Below, in pieces: positions 37,776-45,167 of a DNA stretch of 45,167 nt. Source of the stretch: Desulfocapsa sp. (lineage in GTDB: Bacteria > Desulfobacterota > Desulfobulbia > Desulfobulbales > Desulfocapsaceae); assembly GCA_030145625.1 (NCBI GenBank), contig JAQYVF010000033.1:1-45167 (forward strand), read 5' to 3'. The notes under the pieces were generated by a model, which saw only the letters and a program-made list of their open reading frames with translations, was not told where the DNA came from and did not search any database. The stretch's first letter is position 1, and every line of letters begins with the position of its first letter. Made by a program: the position numbers and the translations under genes.

Positions 37776-39950
37776 TTACGAGCACTTACTGTATCCACAG
37801 TCATGACACGTCTCACACCCCTCTTCAAAGACCAGGGTGCCGGAACACTCTGGACAGGAGGAAGCAAAGCCATGCTGGGTTCCTGCCATAAAAGATTTGA
37901 ACAATTTACTCAATTGAGCGGGAAGGTCAAGCATATGTCCACTGGAACGATCAAGTTGTTTAATAATTTCCGATGCCGGTATGTTAAAACGCAGGGCAAG
38001 GGAGACCAGACGACAGGTGGTGGTCCACATGGTTGACTTATCTTTAAGATCCACTCGGTTATCAAAGGGAAATTTCGCAAAGACCTCCATGGGTTGCTCA
38101 TTCTCGTCGAAACATACAATGATATAAACCGACTTCTGATCCTGATCTTTCACCCGATAGCGCTTGGCACTGAGAGTATCCGGCAGATTTCTTTTCACCA
38201 CCCCGGCAGTGGAAACCGTGGCGGTCTGTTCTTCCTTCTCCGAGCTTTCCTTCGTGTTCAGAACCTGTGAATCTCTGGACCCATCGCGGTACACGGTGAG
38301 TCCCTTGCATCCCAGTTTGTACCCAAGGAGATAGGAAAGCTTCACCTCATCACGGCCGGCATTGTTGGGCAGATTGATGGTTTTGGAGATGGAGGAATCC
38401 ACCCCGTTCTGCTGCAGGATGCCCTGCATCCGGATATGATCTTCGGGTTGCACATCCTGAGCCGTACGAAACACCTCCTGCCATTCCTCTGGAATCTCCT
38501 CATGGCCAATGACCGTACCGCTGTCCGCCACCTTAGTCATGAGCTCCTCTGAATAAAAACCTTCGGTCCTGGCTATCTGTTCAAAATGCTTATTGACCAG
38601 AATAAGACGGTCTCCATCCATCACATTTTTGACCATGACAATGGAAAAATAAGGCTCACAACCTGAGGCGCAGTCGGCAATCATGGACACCGTTCCCGTG
38701 GGCTGGATGGAAGTCAAGGCCGCATTTCTCCGAGCAGGATACTCGTTGACAGTAGAGTCGTATGCAGGAAAAGCCCCCTTTTCCTCTGCCAGTTCAATCG
38801 ATCGTTCTTCAGCTTTATCACGAACAAAACGCATAACCTCTGCAGCCTGATTGCGCCCCTCTTCACTCCCGTAAGGCAGGCCAAGCTGAATAAGCATATC
38901 ATGCATCCCCATGATCCCCATTCCTATCTTCCTGGTCTTCAAGGTCATCTCTTTGATTTCAGGGATGGGAAAACGATTACAGTCAATCACATTATCAAGA
39001 AAGGCGGTAGCCACACGGACAACCCCTTCCATTCGCTCATAGTCCACTGCCCCATCTTTGACAAAATTACCAAGATTCAGTGATCCCAGGTTGCAGCTCT
39101 CATAGGGAAGCAGCCACTGCTCGCCACATGGGTTGGTGGCCTCAAAATCACCAAGCTGAGGAGTCATATTATCTTTGTTGGCGGTGTCGATAAAAAGGAC
39201 CCCGGGTTCTCCATTGTGCCAGGCCAGATCAATAATCTTTTCAAAGACGGAGCGGGCATCAAGACTATCGATCTCCTCTCCGGTAGATGGCTCAATCAAC
39301 AAGTACTCACTGCCCTCCTCCACTGCCTGCATGAAGGCATCCGTCATAGCCACACTGAAATTGAAATTATTAAATTTCTCCTGGTCTTCTTTGGCACTGA
39401 TAAAATCCATGATATCGGGATGATCAATCCTCAGCACACCCATGTTAGCACCCCGCCGTTTGCCACCCTGCTTGATGGTCTCGGTGGCGGCATCAAAAAC
39501 CGCGGCAAAAGAGAGGGGGCCCGAGGCCACTCCCTGAGTGGAACGAACAGATGCATTTTTAGAGCGAAGCCGAGAAAAGGAATAACCGGTACCGCCTCCG
39601 GTTTTATGCACCAGAGCGCCGTTACGAATGGCCGTGAAAATTCCGTCCATAGAGTCTTCCACCGGCAGGACAAAACAGGCAGACAGCTGCCCAAGATCTG
39701 TCCCTGCATTCATCAAGCAGGGAGAATTGGGTAAAAAATCCAAATGATATATCATCCGAAAAAAAGACTCCCGTAGGGCCTCATACTGGTCACTGTCCCG
39801 ATCCACCTCAGCCACAGCATTACTGACCCGACGACAGAGAGACTCCCAAGTCTCAACAGTTTCACCATTATCATCTTTTAGGTAGTAGCGCCTGGCAAGT
39901 ACTGTTTCGGCAGTCTGGGTCAATACCTGTTTGGTCAAATTGGGAGTCAT
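37776..39950 (-). CDS. nrdJ: Adenosylcobalamin-dependent (class II) ribonucleotide reductase
   Basis: NrdJ reduces ribonucleotides to deoxyribonucleotides using adenosylcobalamin to form the thiyl radical, so it needs no oxygen. The ATG at 39950 is preceded by GAGG nine bases upstream; an ATG at 39965 has none. From that start (724 residues), C92 is in LSACFVLPV, the radical-site C275 and E277 are in NPCGEQWLLPYESCNLG (273-289), and IQPTGTVSMIADCASGCEP is a class II block. The carboxy end has a TSCPD-type region and a zinc ribbon (CPECSG, CETCHDCGYSKCS), which reduces the active site in this subclass. Two NrdR-like boxes control its promoter. Confidence 0.95.
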   Translation of the reverse strand: MTPNLTKQVLTQTAETVLARRYYLKDDNGETVETWESLCRRVSNAVAEVDRDSDQYEALRESFFRMIYHLDFLPNSPCLMNAGTDLGQLSACFVLPVEDSMDGIFTAIRNGALVHKTGGGTGYSFSRLRSKNASVRSTQGVASGPLSFAAVFDAATETIKQGGKRRGANMGVLRIDHPDIMDFISAKEDQEKFNNFNFSVAMTDAFMQAVEEGSEYLLIEPSTGEEIDSLDARSVFEKIIDLAWHNGEPGVLFIDTANKDNMTPQLGDFEATNPCGEQWLLPYESCNLGSLNLGNFVKDGAVDYERMEGVVRVATAFLDNVIDCNRFPIPEIKEMTLKTRKIGMGIMGMHDMLIQLGLPYGSEEGRNQAAEVMRFVRDKAEERSIELAEEKGAFPAYDSTVNEYPARRNAALTSIQPTGTVSMIADCASGCEPYFSIVMVKNVMDGDRLILVNKHFEQIARTEGFYSEELMTKVADSGTVIGHEEIPEEWQEVFRTAQDVQPEDHIRMQGILQQNGVDSSISKTINLPNNAGRDEVKLSYLLGYKLGCKGLTVYRDGSRDSQVLNTKESSEKEEQTATVSTAGVVKRNLPDTLSAKRYRVKDQDQKSVYIIVCFDENEQPMEVFAKFPFDNRVDLKDKSTMWTTTCRLVSLALRFNIPASEIIKQLDRSSGHMLDLPAQLSKLFKSFMAGTQHGFASSCPECSGTLVFEEGCETCHDCGYSKCS

Positions 39951-40080
39951 ATAGTTTTTCCTCATGGGATATGTTGTGGATAGGGGGTTAAATCAGCTAA
40001 TGATCGACAAGAAAAACGGGCTTTCAATAGGATAGAAAAGCATACAAAACGCCCTTTTCCCGCTTTCGTCAGTTAACATG

Positions 40081-40110
40081 CTTATACACCATACTTATGG
40101 TGCAAAACAA
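40081..40110 (-). promoter_or_regulatory. Putative nrdJ promoter
   Basis: On the minus strand, TTGTTT (40110-40105) as -35, an 18-base spacer and TATAAG (40086-40081) as -10 form a sigma-70-like promoter about 120 bases before the nrdJ start codon. One NrdR-like box fills the spacer almost exactly, and the other lies just upstream of the -35, as expected for a repressor that blocks RNA polymerase. Confidence 0.6.
40086..40102. promoter_or_regulatory. NrdR-like box 1
   Basis: The perfect dyad CACCATA-CT-TATGGTG (40087-40102, preceded by A) resembles the NrdR box consensus ACACWATATATWGWGT, agreeing at about 11 of 16 positions from 40086. It lies in the spacer of the likely nrdJ promoter. NrdR is the ATP/dATP-sensing repressor of ribonucleotide reductase genes. 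Confidence 0.6.
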
Positions 40111-40117
40111 GAACTAT

Positions 40118-40133
40118 CTACAATATATGGTAC
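40118..40133. promoter_or_regulatory. NrdR-like box 2
   Basis: CTACAATATATGGTAC agrees with the NrdR box consensus at about 11 of 16 positions, including the AATATAT core. Its centre is 31 bases (three helical turns) from that of box 1, the spacing typical of paired NrdR boxes, which are bound together on one face of the DNA. Confidence 0.65.
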
Positions 40134-40382: not shown

Positions 40383-41195
40383 ATGAAAACAGTTGAACAA
40401 CGCCTGGAAGAGCATCTTATTACTGCAGAACCTTATTATCTTGTCTCCGGCACAGAAATAGAAATTGCATTATCCGCATACAAAAACGGACTCCCCCTCC
40501 TGTTAAAAGGTCCAACCGGTTGCGGAAAGACGCGTTTCATGCAGTACCTGGCCTGGAAACTACAGCGACCGCTCATCACGGTCTCCTGCCATGACGATCT
40601 CTCCACCAGCGACCTTGTGGGCCGTTACCTAATCCGCTCAGGAGAGGCAGTATGGATTGACGGCCCTCTCACCCTGGCAGTTCGTGCAGGCGCCATCTGC
40701 TACCTCGACGAAATTGTAGAAGCCCGGAAGGATACGACAGTGGTTATTCACCCCCTGGCCGATGACCGCAGAGAACTCCCTGTGGAAAAACTGGGTGAGT
40801 TGCTGACGGCCCCGCCCGAATTCATGATCAGTGTTTCCTACAACCCGGGTTATCAAAGCGTATTAAAGGACCTCAAGCCCTCAACTCGCCAGCGCTTTGT
40901 GGCCATCTCTTTTGACTATCCCCTTCCCGATCAGGAAGTCGAGATTGTATGCCAAGAAGGCGGAGTAGAAAAAGAGCTGGCCCACTCTCTGGTAAAATTG
41001 GCCGGGATGACCCGCAGCCTGAAGGAATCAGGGCTTGCAGAAGGGGCCTCCACCCGTCTCCTCATCCAGGCCGGAAAATTGACACAAGACGGGATCGACA
41101 TCCATACAGCCTGTCGGGTAGCCATCATCGAACCACTGAGTGATGACCCTGAACTCCTGGCAGCCTTACAAGAAATGGTCAGCTCCATATTCTGA
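40383..41195 (+). CDS. MoxR-type AAA+ ATPase, CbbQ/NirQ/NorQ family
   Basis: A 270-residue AAA+ ATPase with Walker A GPTGCGKT (43-50), Walker B ICYLDE (105-110), a sensor region MISVSYNPGYQ and an arginine finger region STRQRF. The composition and carboxy-terminal domain match CbbQ, NirQ and NorQ, which remodel metalloenzymes (Rubisco, nitrite or nitric oxide reductase) together with a VWA-domain partner. The partner follows 22 bases downstream. None of those client enzymes is encoded in the window. A GAGGAG lies about 11 bases before the ATG. Confidence 0.88.
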   Translation: MKTVEQRLEEHLITAEPYYLVSGTEIEIALSAYKNGLPLLLKGPTGCGKTRFMQYLAWKLQRPLITVSCHDDLSTSDLVGRYLIRSGEAVWIDGPLTLAVRAGAICYLDEIVEARKDTTVVIHPLADDRRELPVEKLGELLTAPPEFMISVSYNPGYQSVLKDLKPSTRQRFVAISFDYPLPDQEVEIVCQEGGVEKELAHSLVKLAGMTRSLKESGLAEGASTRLLIQAGKLTQDGIDIHTACRVAIIEPLSDDPELLAALQEMVSSIF

Positions 41196-41217
41196 AACGT
41201 ACAGGATATCAATACCC

Positions 41218-43515
41218 ATGAAGTTAGCCGCCCTGTCAGAGCAATTTTACAGCCTGGTCTCTCCCGACATTCCCAACGAGTGGGATGTGGAGGAGGTCAT
41301 GGAGCCCTTTATCGAGACAAACGACAAGGTCTGCGAGGTCATTCTCGAGCATATCCCGGTAATCTGGCCGGTTTCCCACTCTCTCTGCTATGATTTCCTA
41401 CGACAGGCCCCTGAAGCTTTGAAACACCTCAGCCTGGAGCAGCTTCCGCACTGGGTAGGGGTAGCTCTTGACATTTACGAAAATGACGGTCTGCGTACAG
41501 CCCAGCGATTCATGCAGGATGGGGTCGAAAATCACCTCTCCAGATTGAAAGGAAGTGGAGGGCTTGCTCTCGCCTCTGTTGAAAAACGACTTCTTCCCTA
41601 TATCCGTGGTATTGCAAGAGATGAATTACAGATCGTCCCGGCAAGAGAAACCTATACCGACACCTCCACACTCTATGCCCCTGAGGAAATCAATCTATTT
41701 CACAACAACGAGCAAAATTTCCTCCTCTACAAACTGATTTTCACCTACCAATGGGGCTATATCGCCTGTGGAAGTTTTTTGGCCAGAGCACCAGAGGGAT
41801 TCCCCCTGTTTTCCAACAGGGAAGACAGCCTCTGGCTCCGGGCATTTCTAGACAGTTTTACCAATCCACCACTGGCCCGCGACATTTATCACCTCCTGGA
41901 ATCCATACGGGTCAAGATCTTTCTCCACAAAGAATTACCGGGCCTTATGCGAGCGGTATCGAAACTCCCATTTCCCCTCGACTTACCACTCCCCATGAAA
42001 AATAAGGCGAATCTATTTTTCGCCTCAATACAACAAGGACTCACAGGAGACAAGACAGACCTCTACACCCTGTTGCAGCCCCACCTCACGCCATCTGAGT
42101 GTCAACGTTTCCTGCATGGCGAGGCCACACCTCAGGACAGTGCAAGGCTTGTCCCCAGGCTCTACTCCACCCTTCATAACAAGGATCAGGACTACATCCC
42201 CTTCCCCCCTCTCCCCTTCCAGGGACGACTGAAATTACGGTCCGTGGAAACTGCCCGCAAGGTGCAAAAAGAAAAGATGGGTGAGCAGTTTGTCGATCTG
42301 ATGGCCGCCCACTTCCTTACTCTGTCCCAGGAAAAGTTAAAGAACATCCTCAAGGATGAAGAGAGAGACAGCGGCGGCAGTGGGTTAGCCGAATCGGATG
42401 TCAGCATGATCATGGATAGTGAATTCGCTCAGACCGCTGATCAGGACAAGGCAGCTCCCCTCCTTGTCACCATCAACAATGAAGAACTGGAATTCCCCCC
42501 GGAACTGGAGAGTTTCACCCGTAAATTTCTTGATGAATTCGGCCAACTCCCCACAAGATTTATTACAAGTGCCGCTGGCAAGGCAGGAGAAGGAATGCTC
42601 CGGGGTGATGTCGGTGGGCAGGAGGAAGGTGAACAACAGAGCACAGGTACAGTGGTCTATGACGAATGGGATTATCGCCGACAGGGCTATCGCAAGAACT
42701 GGTGCTCGCTGCAGCTCAAAGAATTGCCACAAGTGCATTCCCCATTTATCCGCAACACCCTGGATAAATACCACGGCCTTACCCTGCGCCTGCGCCACCA
42801 GTTCGAGATGATGCGCAGCCAGGAACGGTTCGTCAAACGTCAGCGAGAAGGCGACGATATTGATTTCGATGCCCTGGTAGAGTCCCTATCCGATACCCAG
42901 GCAGGACTCCCGTCATCAGACCGTCTTTTTATCCGCCTCAAACAGGATGAACGGGATATAGCCGTGCTTTTCCTGGTGGATATGTCCAACTCCACCTCGG
43001 GCTGGGTCAACACCGCCCTTAAAGAATCCCTGGTGCTCATGTCGGAAGCCATGGAAGTACTTGGTGACCGCTATGGAATCTACGGTTTTTCAGGCATGCG
43101 CCGCTCCCGCTGTGAACTCTTCCACGTCAAGCATCTGACAGAGTCATATGGCGAACGGGTCAAAGAACGGATCAGTTCCATCGGCCCCAGCGAATATACC
43201 CGGATGGGCCCGCCCATCCGCCATGCCACCCGCCTTCTTCAGGAGGTAGACGCCAAGGTCCGCCTCATCATCACCCTTACCGATGGCAAACCCGAAGACT
43301 ATGATGATTACAAGGGTGACTATGCCATCGAAGATACCCGCCATGCCCTGCTTGAGGCCAAGGTTGCAGGTATCCATCCCTTCTGCATCACCATTGATCA
43401 CCAGGCCCACGACTATATGGAACATATGTATGGTCCGGCCAACTACATCTTTGTTGACAATGTACGCAAACTCCCTCTACGTATGCCGGAAATATACCGA
43501 ACACTGACCAGCTGA
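41218..43515 (+). CDS. CbbO/NorD-type protein with von Willebrand A domain
   Basis: The 765-residue protein (start ATG 41218, MKLAALSEQFYSLV; the open frame begins upstream inside the ATPase gene) has a long helical amino part that resembles CbbO/NorD proteins, then a central linker (about 360-480) and a carboxy-terminal VWA domain. The MIDAS metal site D588-M-S-N-S is in FLVDMSNSTSG, and the second threonine and aspartate motifs are near SEYTRMGPPI and ITLTDGKPEDYDDY. VWA partners deliver the AAA+ ring to its client. The combination with the upstream gene is a two-component chaperone, with client unknown. Not fused, and no sign of damage. Confidence 0.87.
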   Translation: MKLAALSEQFYSLVSPDIPNEWDVEEVMEPFIETNDKVCEVILEHIPVIWPVSHSLCYDFLRQAPEALKHLSLEQLPHWVGVALDIYENDGLRTAQRFMQDGVENHLSRLKGSGGLALASVEKRLLPYIRGIARDELQIVPARETYTDTSTLYAPEEINLFHNNEQNFLLYKLIFTYQWGYIACGSFLARAPEGFPLFSNREDSLWLRAFLDSFTNPPLARDIYHLLESIRVKIFLHKELPGLMRAVSKLPFPLDLPLPMKNKANLFFASIQQGLTGDKTDLYTLLQPHLTPSECQRFLHGEATPQDSARLVPRLYSTLHNKDQDYIPFPPLPFQGRLKLRSVETARKVQKEKMGEQFVDLMAAHFLTLSQEKLKNILKDEERDSGGSGLAESDVSMIMDSEFAQTADQDKAAPLLVTINNEELEFPPELESFTRKFLDEFGQLPTRFITSAAGKAGEGMLRGDVGGQEEGEQQSTGTVVYDEWDYRRQGYRKNWCSLQLKELPQVHSPFIRNTLDKYHGLTLRLRHQFEMMRSQERFVKRQREGDDIDFDALVESLSDTQAGLPSSDRLFIRLKQDERDIAVLFLVDMSNSTSGWVNTALKESLVLMSEAMEVLGDRYGIYGFSGMRRSRCELFHVKHLTESYGERVKERISSIGPSEYTRMGPPIRHATRLLQEVDAKVRLIITLTDGKPEDYDDYKGDYAIEDTRHALLEAKVAGIHPFCITIDHQAHDYMEHMYGPANYIFVDNVRKLPLRMPEIYRTLTS

Positions 43516-43565: not shown

Positions 43566-45167
43566 TTACATCCGGCCATGCCGGATAATTGAAACCAACA
43601 GCCAGAAGCCCATAATTCCAGCTACAAGAAACCCTGCCAGACCAATAACAGGTATCCCATTCCATCTTGGCGGAATATCAGAGAGAATAATCAAAGATGA
43701 ACCAATAATCTGAGCAGCCAGCACAATGGCAAAAGCAATACGGTTAGATACTCGATCAAGTGCAATTGAGAGTTTTCCCACACCAAGATGTTCAAATTCT
43801 ATCTTCATCCTGCCATCACGGAGCTGCCTCAAAATACCCCGGACTTCTTCTGGAACCTCCTGAATAAATCGTAGATACTCACCGCTTGTCTCACCAACTT
43901 CTTCAGCAAGTCGCCCAAGTCGCATTCGCTCTGCCTTCACCTTTTTTATGTAAGGTTCCGCAAGCGTAATGAGTTCAAGATCAGGATTGAGCATTAAACC
44001 AACACCTTCAATCGTAGAAAGTGCCTTAATCATCAAATAAAGATTCGGTTTAATACTGAGCTGATGACGTTGAACGAGATCCAGGAGCTCCTGCAGTATT
44101 TTCCCTGCCTGCAACTCCTTGAGAGGTAAATACATATAGCGATCTAACAGGTCTCCAAGATCACGACTGAGTGCATCATGGTCAACTTTACCGAATTGAG
44201 TGGTTATACTGAGAACCCCATCTGTTATCTTCCGATCATTTTTCATGACAATGGAGAGCATCAGATCGGTAAAATCTTCCCGATCCTGACGTGTGAGCCG
44301 CCCCATCATTCCAAAATCAATAAAACAGATCACATTACCCGGTAGAATAAAAATATTACCGGGGTGAGGATCTCCATGGAAAAAGCCATAAACGAAAATT
44401 TGCTCCATTACCAGGTTTGCACCACTTTCAGCAATCAACTGAAGGTCATAGCCCTGACGGCGTAAAACATCTACCTTGGAAGTTTTGATTCCATCAACAT
44501 ATTCCATGGTCAGGATACGTTCGGTACTTAAGTCTGCATAAACGAGAGGAACGTAAACAGTTTTGTTGCCCTTGAATTGACGTGAAAAACGCTGGAGATT
44601 GGCTAATTCAACCATGTAGTCAATCTCCAGTGACAAGCTGCGGGCAAACTCATCGACAACAGCGGATGGCCGATGGCCCTGCAACTCCTCCAGATATTGC
44701 TCCATGAGTGACGCAAGATGCGCCAAAATCTCAAGATCAACGGCAATAATATTTTCAATATTTGGACGCTGAACCTTGACCACCACTGCCTTGCCGTCCT
44801 GCAGACGGCCCCGATGGACTTGGCCTATGGATGCTGCGGCCATAGGCTCTTTGTCAAACTCCTTAAACAGGTCGCCAGGTTTTTTGCCGGTCTCAGCAAG
44901 AAAAATTTCTTCCACTTCAGCAAAAGTGAAAGGCGGTACATTATCTTGTAGCTTGGCAAACTCGTATACATACCTGGGTGCAATAAGATCAGGACGGGTG
45001 GAGAGCACCTGACCCAGCTTGATAAAGGTTGGCCCCAGCTCTTCCAGGGCCATACGAAACCTTTCTGGCCGCGAATGTTTTTCAATTTCCTCACGCGGTT
45101 TTCTGTTGATCATCTTCAGTCCTGTTTCCAGGTACTGATCAATACGCAACCCTTCGACAAGGTCATC
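43566..45167 (-). CDS. ubiB: UbiB/ABC1 (AarF) kinase-like protein, 5' end beyond window
   Basis: At least 533 residues are visible. The frame continues to the right edge (DDLVEGLRIDQYLETGL), matching the usual start region of UbiB proteins, so a TTG at 45149 is probably not the true start. Atypical-kinase motifs are KLGQ in PTFIKLGQVLSTRPDL, the alanine-rich loop AAASIGQVHRG, the lysine in VVVKVQRP, the catalytic region FHGDPHPGN and DFGMMG. Two carboxy-terminal membrane helices follow (FAIVLAAQIIGSSLIIL and IGLAGFLVAGIMGFWLLV). UbiB proteins support quinone synthesis or lipid transport. Convergent with the CbbO-like gene across a 50-base gap without a recognisable terminator. Confidence 0.92.
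   Translation of the reverse strand, partial: DDLVEGLRIDQYLETGLKMINRKPREEIEKHSRPERFRMALEELGPTFIKLGQVLSTRPDLIAPRYVYEFAKLQDNVPPFTFAEVEEIFLAETGKKPGDLFKEFDKEPMAAASIGQVHRGRLQDGKAVVVKVQRPNIENIIAVDLEILAHLASLMEQYLEELQGHRPSAVVDEFARSLSLEIDYMVELANLQRFSRQFKGNKTVYVPLVYADLSTERILTMEYVDGIKTSKVDVLRRQGYDLQLIAESGANLVMEQIFVYGFFHGDPHPGNIFILPGNVICFIDFGMMGRLTRQDREDFTDLMLSIVMKNDRKITDGVLSITTQFGKVDHDALSRDLGDLLDRYMYLPLKELQAGKILQELLDLVQRHQLSIKPNLYLMIKALSTIEGVGLMLNPDLELITLAEPYIKKVKAERMRLGRLAEEVGETSGEYLRFIQEVPEEVRGILRQLRDGRMKIEFEHLGVGKLSIALDRVSNRIAFAIVLAAQIIGSSLIILSDIPPRWNGIPVIGLAGFLVAGIMGFWLLVSIIRHGRM

Follow-up and report, generated by a model that had tools for sequence, protein, structure and literature searches.

AAA+ ATPases that work with a VWA-domain protein, as in CbbQ/CbbO and NorQ/NorD, normally activate one specific enzyme. 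In the passages of the literature consulted, three pairs of a MoxR-type ATPase and a VWA protein have a named client, namely cytochrome c nitric oxide reductase (cNOR), RuBisCO and fumarate reductase. The consulted parts of two papers model NorQD as a hexameric NorQ with one NorD, the finger of which sits in the pore while ATP drives a turning motion (PMC13036017, PMC9976466); the CbbQO mechanism, as given in the passages used of PMC4660213, served as a second analogue. Here we describe an adjacent pair of such genes, hereafter Q and D, in 45,167 nucleotides of Desulfocapsa sp. contig JAQYVF010000033.1, the whole of this stretch being referred to as the window. The pair is a true orphan in a clade of its own, and its obvious clients are excluded or unsupported. 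We consider it probable that Q and D form a dedicated ATP-driven remodeller that works like NorQD and CbbQO on a client encoded elsewhere, which would be neither cNOR nor RuBisCO nor, most likely, NrdJ, the class II ribonucleotide reductase encoded next to the pair.

The ATPase Q and its VWA partner D

A preliminary description of this DNA had proposed a CbbQ/O-type AAA+/VWA pair without an adjoining client, and Pfam, matches to solved chains and the gene neighbourhood all bear this out. Q is a member of the CbbQ/NorQ group of MoxR AAA+ ATPases: it matches Pfam AAA_5 (E 6.8e-31) and CbbQ_C (E 1.4e-30), both over cut-off, and aligns over nearly its full length with four solved CbbQ/NorQ chains (phmmer E 6.1e-98 to 3.4e-90). 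Every catalytic or interface residue tested is kept, comprising Walker A (C47/K49), Walker B (D109/E110), sensor 1, two arginines (169 and 171), sensor 2 (R225) and the H2-insert motif, GRYLI at residues 80-84, which in NorQ holds the finger; a further cysteine stands at position 69. An identity as GvpN, the gas vesicle ATPase, was rejected, TIGR02640 scoring Q at 78.5 bits against a cut-off of 266.8.

D matches Pfam VWA (E 6.6e-6), and its last 300 residues match two solved NorD chains (E 2.4e-43 and 1e-38). The five residues of its metal ion-dependent adhesion site (MIDAS) are intact in 32 of 32 Desulfobulbales rows. A model of residues 477-765 superposes on two NorD finger/VWA structures with Z 28.9 and, for 9qhd, 28.1, and D is accordingly predicted to carry a NorD-like pore finger. 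An adjoining VWA gene, five MIDAS residues and, as modelled, a pore finger are the attributes by which we recognise a MoxR/VWA pair.

The genome (4,983,826 bases in 229 contigs, completeness 100) holds a single copy of D. We compared 82 loci, made up of the window, locus L043 and 80 loci of relatives (the best 80 of 272); by the named ones among these relatives, the genome falls into the genus to which Desulfocapsa MAGs belong, in the order Desulfobulbales. In 75 of the 82, Q sits directly next to D with both on one strand, so their pairing is not a matter of chance; among the other seven, several are cut by a contig end or have no called Q or D. The observation of an orphan Q-D pair is thereby confirmed as real. 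Its limits had been given as 40383-43515, and the end holds; the mechanical start of D does not. That open reading frame begins with GTG at 41140, within Q. Because D of most relatives opens at an internal ATG (MKLAALSEQFY...), we moved the start to 41218, which leaves 22 bases between the two genes.

Phylogenetic position and comparison with known systems

Reference sequences for the phylogeny were drawn from several sources. Seven plasmid loci have nor-cluster gene order (L149, L151, L152, L154, L155, L156 and L228); the pair at L153, which has no annotated large subunit alongside, was assigned to the NOR set by our own choice; and four pairs of the same phylum adjoin NorB-like genes (L200-L202, L205). 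Of the seven plasmid loci, L149 alone carries an annotation as nitric oxide reductase; the large subunit at the other six is labelled cbb3-type subunit I. Eight of the NorB-like proteins, among them all four from this phylum, are 50-88% identical to that of L149 (a comparison without L155 and L228), whereas CcoN-like proteins reach only 22-25%. RuBisCO/carboxysome loci (CBB), plasmid loci with amidase, urea or urease genes, and the four solved Q chains completed the references.

In a tree of 84 Q rows, the Desulfobulbales sequences and group B2 (nine rows belonging to further families within the phylum) form one branch with support 99/95, and the NOR (98/88), CBB (100/96) and amidase-linked (100/96) rows form separate branches elsewhere; the amidase/urea-linked branch is the sister of CbbQ. 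A further tree, built from 65 rows, gives the same picture, with Desulfobulbales and kin at 97/90. Phylogenetically, then, Q is placed on a separate supported branch, outside both NorB-linked NorQ and RuBisCO-linked CbbQ. A phylogeny against such groups was one of the checks proposed in the preliminary description, which had named, as the outcome that would count against it, a place inside either the NorQD or the CbbQO branch combined with norB or cbbM elsewhere in the genome; we looked for that combination and did not find it. The suggestion that the client might be new is possibly right. A tree of the D C-terminal part (76 rows) likewise unites Desulfobulbales and B2 (98/95) and keeps NOR on its own side (81/96).

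The closest described system is NorQ/NorD, which matures cNOR in Paracoccus and Jhaorihella. The window Q is 52-59% identical to the NOR rows, and the two systems share an intact MIDAS, the modelled finger/VWA fold and the Q-D gene order. They differ in the branch on which Q stands, in a finger-contact threonine that is alanine here, and in norB, which was not found in this genome. They differ also in D, where 444-546 residues precede the compared C-terminal part against 296-395 in the NOR rows, the two N-terminal parts being only remotely related. Relative to the RuBisCO activase CbbQ/CbbO, Q is 51-55% identical to the CBB rows, and D about equals CbbO in length (~770 residues in the passage seen of PMC4660213); Q nevertheless lies on a separate branch, the C-terminal part of D is only ~30% identical, and the genome has no RuBisCO over cut-off. 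Plasmid CbbQ-like pairs (L251-L254) have the same architecture but are sisters of CbbQ and have genes for aliphatic amidase and urea transport (L252-L254) or for urease (L251) as neighbours, which suggests clients beyond cNOR and RuBisCO. RavA/ViaA and CobS/CobT share the AAA+/VWA principle. RavA and CobS belong to other AAA+ subfamilies, and CobS matches Q only at E 5.5e-5.

Modelled alone from 30 rows, the N-terminal domain of D is mostly helical (predicted local distance difference test score 88). Chance-level rows aside, no Pfam family was found in 30 members, and a PDB search gave no match at E 0.001; among the best structural matches are phage CobT-like and VWFA proteins, which are weak (E 5e-3 to 0.2). 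In profile comparisons of the N-terminal part, kinship falls from group B2 (E 2e-62) through the larger orphan groups (3e-28 to 1e-21) and the NOR set (9e-13) to the CbbO/amidase set (2e-7). Given this graded kinship, the domain is an old, fast-evolving part of the protein. The corresponding domain of NorD has been proposed, in the part seen of PMC9976466, to mediate target specificity. For residues ~108-335, several structural rows are zinc peptidases, the best being 4jiu (Z 5.3, root-mean-square deviation 3.7, 94 aligned), and HExxH is missing in 30 of 30 rows. With Z below 8, this amounts to no more than a hint of a pseudo-peptidase.

Gene neighbourhood and candidate clients

The gene-neighbourhood comparison called for in the preliminary description was run on the 82 loci and shows a standalone two-gene unit with no constant neighbour. 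In its own genus, the pair lies beside nrdJ, with metY, metX and metW-like genes intervening in some loci. Genes that often flank it in Desulfobulbus and kin are a PHP-domain gene (identified by profile), a sigma-54-type regulator, proC, NAD kinase and lpxC (named by reading). In a single genome, at L188, it adjoins an apparent nif cluster (also by reading). The next gene lies on the same strand downstream in 36 of 69 loci and upstream in 31 of 67, about half the time, as expected of unlinked neighbours. The commonest co-directional followers of D are a Sel1-repeat gene (11 loci) and a thioredoxin gene (5). Neighbours differ from genus to genus, with none recurring across the group as a client would.

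We then sought D, standing for the pair, in 159 Desulfobulbales genomes that are at least 90% complete, and found it in 110. In the tables of co-occurrence, two own-genus genomes with D fragments are counted as bearing it, giving 112 genomes with D and 47 without. CODH, NifD and CydA were scored by E-value lines of our own rather than curated cut-offs. Seven families were tabulated against D (RuBisCO excepted), so p values of ~0.03-0.05 are unsurprising.

Of the alternatives to a dedicated machine, the one that fares best is a stress remodeller with several clients, which would repair or re-metallate oxygen-sensitive enzymes, perhaps under thioredoxin control. The lack of a constant neighbour is consistent with it. 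So are the Q cysteines, C69 being kept in 33 of 33 Desulfobulbales rows and C47 in 30 of 33, since PdNorQ is blocked by a disulfide of the equivalent two (PMC13036017). A thioredoxin-like gene that opens with a zinc ribbon lies next downstream of D at six Desulfobulbaceae and three Desulfocapsaceae loci (L085, L086, L088, L094-L096, L057, L064 and L067; one of them checked by profile), and slightly further off at L097, L110 and L120; of the 69 scorable loci, however, only 5 have thioredoxin as the gene directly after D. Cytochrome bd is the only family with a strong raw association, being present in 105/112 genomes with D against 27/47 without (p 1.6e-7; 0 of 20,000 shufflings within families). 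The association weakens when states are counted by genus (p 0.029) and finds no support within genus (0.25) or on a tree, where 13 independent contrasts on supported branches (22 on all branches) give 3.0 with and 1.2 against (median p 0.625); this was a quick NrdJ tree of 80 genomes chosen by us from the 159 (48 with D, 32 without). Cytochrome bd is therefore unsupported as a client. The characterised NorQD and CbbQO pairs, moreover, are client-specific, and we regard the multi-client explanation as unlikely, though it deserves to be kept in mind.

A link to carbon monoxide dehydrogenase/acetyl-CoA synthase (CODH/ACS), to corrinoid activation or to DUF166 is a good deal less probable still. 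It is prompted by three loci of one genus of another family (L189, L192, L193; profiles for L193 only), where DUF166 follows D directly and a 2-oxoacid:ferredoxin oxidoreductase comes next. The corrinoid reductive activator family RACo, moreover, is represented in the vicinity of orphan Q-D pairs of more distant kinship at four loci in two families (L199, L206, L207, L215; profile for L206 only). Among 56 relatives, DUF166 is found in 31 of 36 with D and 12 of 20 without, but outside the own genus the association disappears (p 0.28). AcsB is rather rarer with D (87/112 vs 45/47); CODH is present in 96/112 with D and 44/47 without. D also occurs in 14 of 15 genomes of a Desulfobulbus genus (g27) that is devoid of AcsB and, one strong exception apart, of CODH. 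Separately, we noted DUF166 genes with an in-frame TGA at a cysteine of the CCG motif (L231, L233-L236, L242); in the part seen of PMC9312934, DUF166 is already in a table of prokaryotic selenoproteins.

That the pair is a NorQD system in disguise, with a nitric oxide reductase or some other heme-copper oxidase as the enzyme it matures, seems highly improbable, even though its nearest solved relatives are CbbQ, NorQ and NorD. No COX1 match, hence no NorB, was found in the 229 contigs of this genome, a search in which 8 of 14 control genomes were positive. No COX1 match was found in 19 of 20 own-genus genomes, this one among them, and the sole match (G017) scores as CcoN. Of the 56 relatives, 12 of the 36 with D and 4 of the 20 without have COX1 over cut-off; outside the genus the figures are 11/19 and 4/17 (p 0.049, uncorrected for kinship or repeated testing). 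The 24 D-bearing relatives of 36, this genome included, that have no COX1 over cut-off (G041 has a match below it) contradict this explanation, and the separate Q branch speaks against it. Six COX1 loci, from 22 match rows, were profiled: four score as cbb3, with ccoN at 526-562 bits, just below the cut-off of 583, one as aa3-like (below cut-off) and one as bo3 (over cut-off), while four control NorBs reach at most 50 bits for ccoN. Long COX1 frames in G020 and G024, outside these six, could be quinol nitric oxide reductases.

Two further candidates were set aside. RuBisCO has no match over cut-off in this genome, the single one (24.4 bits vs 30.1) lying in a frame read as a CysK-CysS fusion. 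NifD (80/112 with D, 31/47 without) is not supported once kinship is considered.

The divergent placement from nrdJ had been offered as a hint of function, but activation of NrdJ is the least probable explanation of all and should be dropped: the adjacency is genus-level synteny, seen nowhere outside the own genus in the loci compared, NrdJ is over cut-off in 94/112 genomes with D and 38/47 without (p 0.65), and the 18 D-bearing genomes below cut-off comprise ten weak matches (E ~1e-34 to 1e-54), five with none and three broken fragments.

Proposed mechanism, locus features and related pairs

By analogy with NorQD and CbbQO, Q would form a hexamer that carries one D, with the finger of D seated in the Q pore. 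The MIDAS site would hold the client protein by an acidic patch, and the N-terminal domain would provide a second grip. ATP hydrolysis would turn the VWA part against the N-terminal domain and pull the client open, allowing metal to be inserted or a blocked site to be released. More tentatively, and with less confidence than we place in the remodeller itself, the pair may represent a separate MoxR/VWA subfamily, spanning Desulfobulbales and a few further families of the phylum, whose task would be to activate or repair an anaerobic enzyme for which no need of a motor is known. This enzyme might be an oxygen-damaged metalloenzyme, and the motor would be under redox control through the Q cysteines and, in some lineages, a linked thioredoxin.

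Several points weigh against a dedicated remodeller with a client of its own. The finger contact published for NorQ-type proteins is not identical here: position 89 of Q is alanine in the window and, clade-typically, in 28 of 33 Desulfobulbales rows (window counted), against threonine in all NOR (14/14), CBB (4/4), amidase-linked (4/4) and B2 (9/9) rows and in 16 of 19 orphan rows. The D C-terminal tree groups NOR with Desulfobulbales and B2 (81/98), which is not decisive; because the VWA part of D branches nearest NorD, an ancestral cNOR link, since lost, is possible. D is also patchy, with 22 parsimony changes on the 80-genome tree, as befits a dispensable, accessory gene. Finally, the candidates examined were only eight families (COX1, RuBisCO, DUF166, NifD, NrdJ, AcsB, CODH and cytochrome bd), and none is a supported client.

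Since a clade of pairs with no known client is widespread in Desulfobulbales, some enzyme there probably needs motor-driven activation. The open-access literature searched yielded no paper on MoxR in Desulfobulb taxa or on NorQ in Desulfocapsa sulfexigens, and among the titles listed none concerns this clade. The role of orphan MoxR/VWA machines becomes testable in cultivated strains, of which Desulfurivibrio sp. AMeS2 (L137), Desulfobulbus rhabdoformis (L123) and Desulfogranum japonicum (L118) carry the pair, and a NorQ/NorD label does not imply nitric oxide reduction.

The features of the locus are collected in Table 1. Profile matches agree with the earlier naming of the flanking genes as a ribonucleotide reductase and a UbiB gene.

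Table 1. Features of the Q-D locus in the window.
Feature	Position	Strand	Basis or remark
Q, MoxR-type AAA+ ATPase of the CbbQ/NorQ group, 270 aa	40383..41195	+	Pfam AAA_5 and CbbQ_C, phmmer, residue check
D, VWA partner of the NorD/CbbO kind, 765 aa	41218..43515	+	Pfam VWA, NorD matches; start corrected from 41140
D N-terminal domain, residues 1-370	41218..42327	+	mostly helical model; distantly related by profile to the N-domains of NorD and CbbO
D finger and VWA domain, residues 477-765	42646..43512	+	structure match of the model; MIDAS D588, S590, S592, T661, D689 intact
nrdJ, class II ribonucleotide reductase, divergent neighbour	37776..39965	-	profile match; tests made speak against a client role
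Motif pair in the nrdJ-Q gap: inverted repeat 40086-40103, ACAATATATGGT 40120-40131	40086..40131	.	
UbiB/ABC1-type gene, convergent neighbour	43566..45149	-	same placement otherwise only in the two closest relatives

All six genomes in which nrdJ adjoins Q without intervening genes have the motif ACAA[TG]ATAT[AG]GT in the gap between the two; in three of them the other element of the pair, the inverted repeat that precedes it, is degenerate. With any base allowed at the varied place, the motif recurs near nrdJ in two of five loci separated by met genes (L042 and L045; not L043, L047 or L049), and it is absent from all 13 loci without nrdJ. As far as it could be followed, the motif appears to go with nrdJ and not with Q. 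It was left unnamed because the strict NrdR-box consensus gave no match in the gap. Promoter and terminator scans of the gap were near chance, and no Rfam family was found in the window. NrdJ frames of 1141-1553 residues in L257:1-12000 (G375) and in G373, G378 and G379 match the family in two pieces ~1.1-1.4 kb apart, a pattern resembling an in-frame insertion, for example an intein.

Other Q-D pairs were encountered along the way. A second, different pair occurs in two families of the order (L266:1-4594, G394; L267:3641-10630, G347), between a URO-D gene (corrinoid methyltransferase-like) and DUF2284, with a Prismane-family (Hcp-like) gene following in L267; it is possibly a separate client group. 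At L222:6603-15879 (G224), a Q-D pair is followed by an XdhC/CoxI-family gene, lies near a gene for a molybdopterin dehydrogenase FAD subunit, and looks like a molybdenum-hydroxylase-linked pair. Q and VWA genes likewise stand as orphans on a plasmid of the actinobacterium Miltoncostaea oceani (L148), where one open reading frame overlaps both the annotated D and the hypothetical gene that precedes it, so this D may be split or misannotated.

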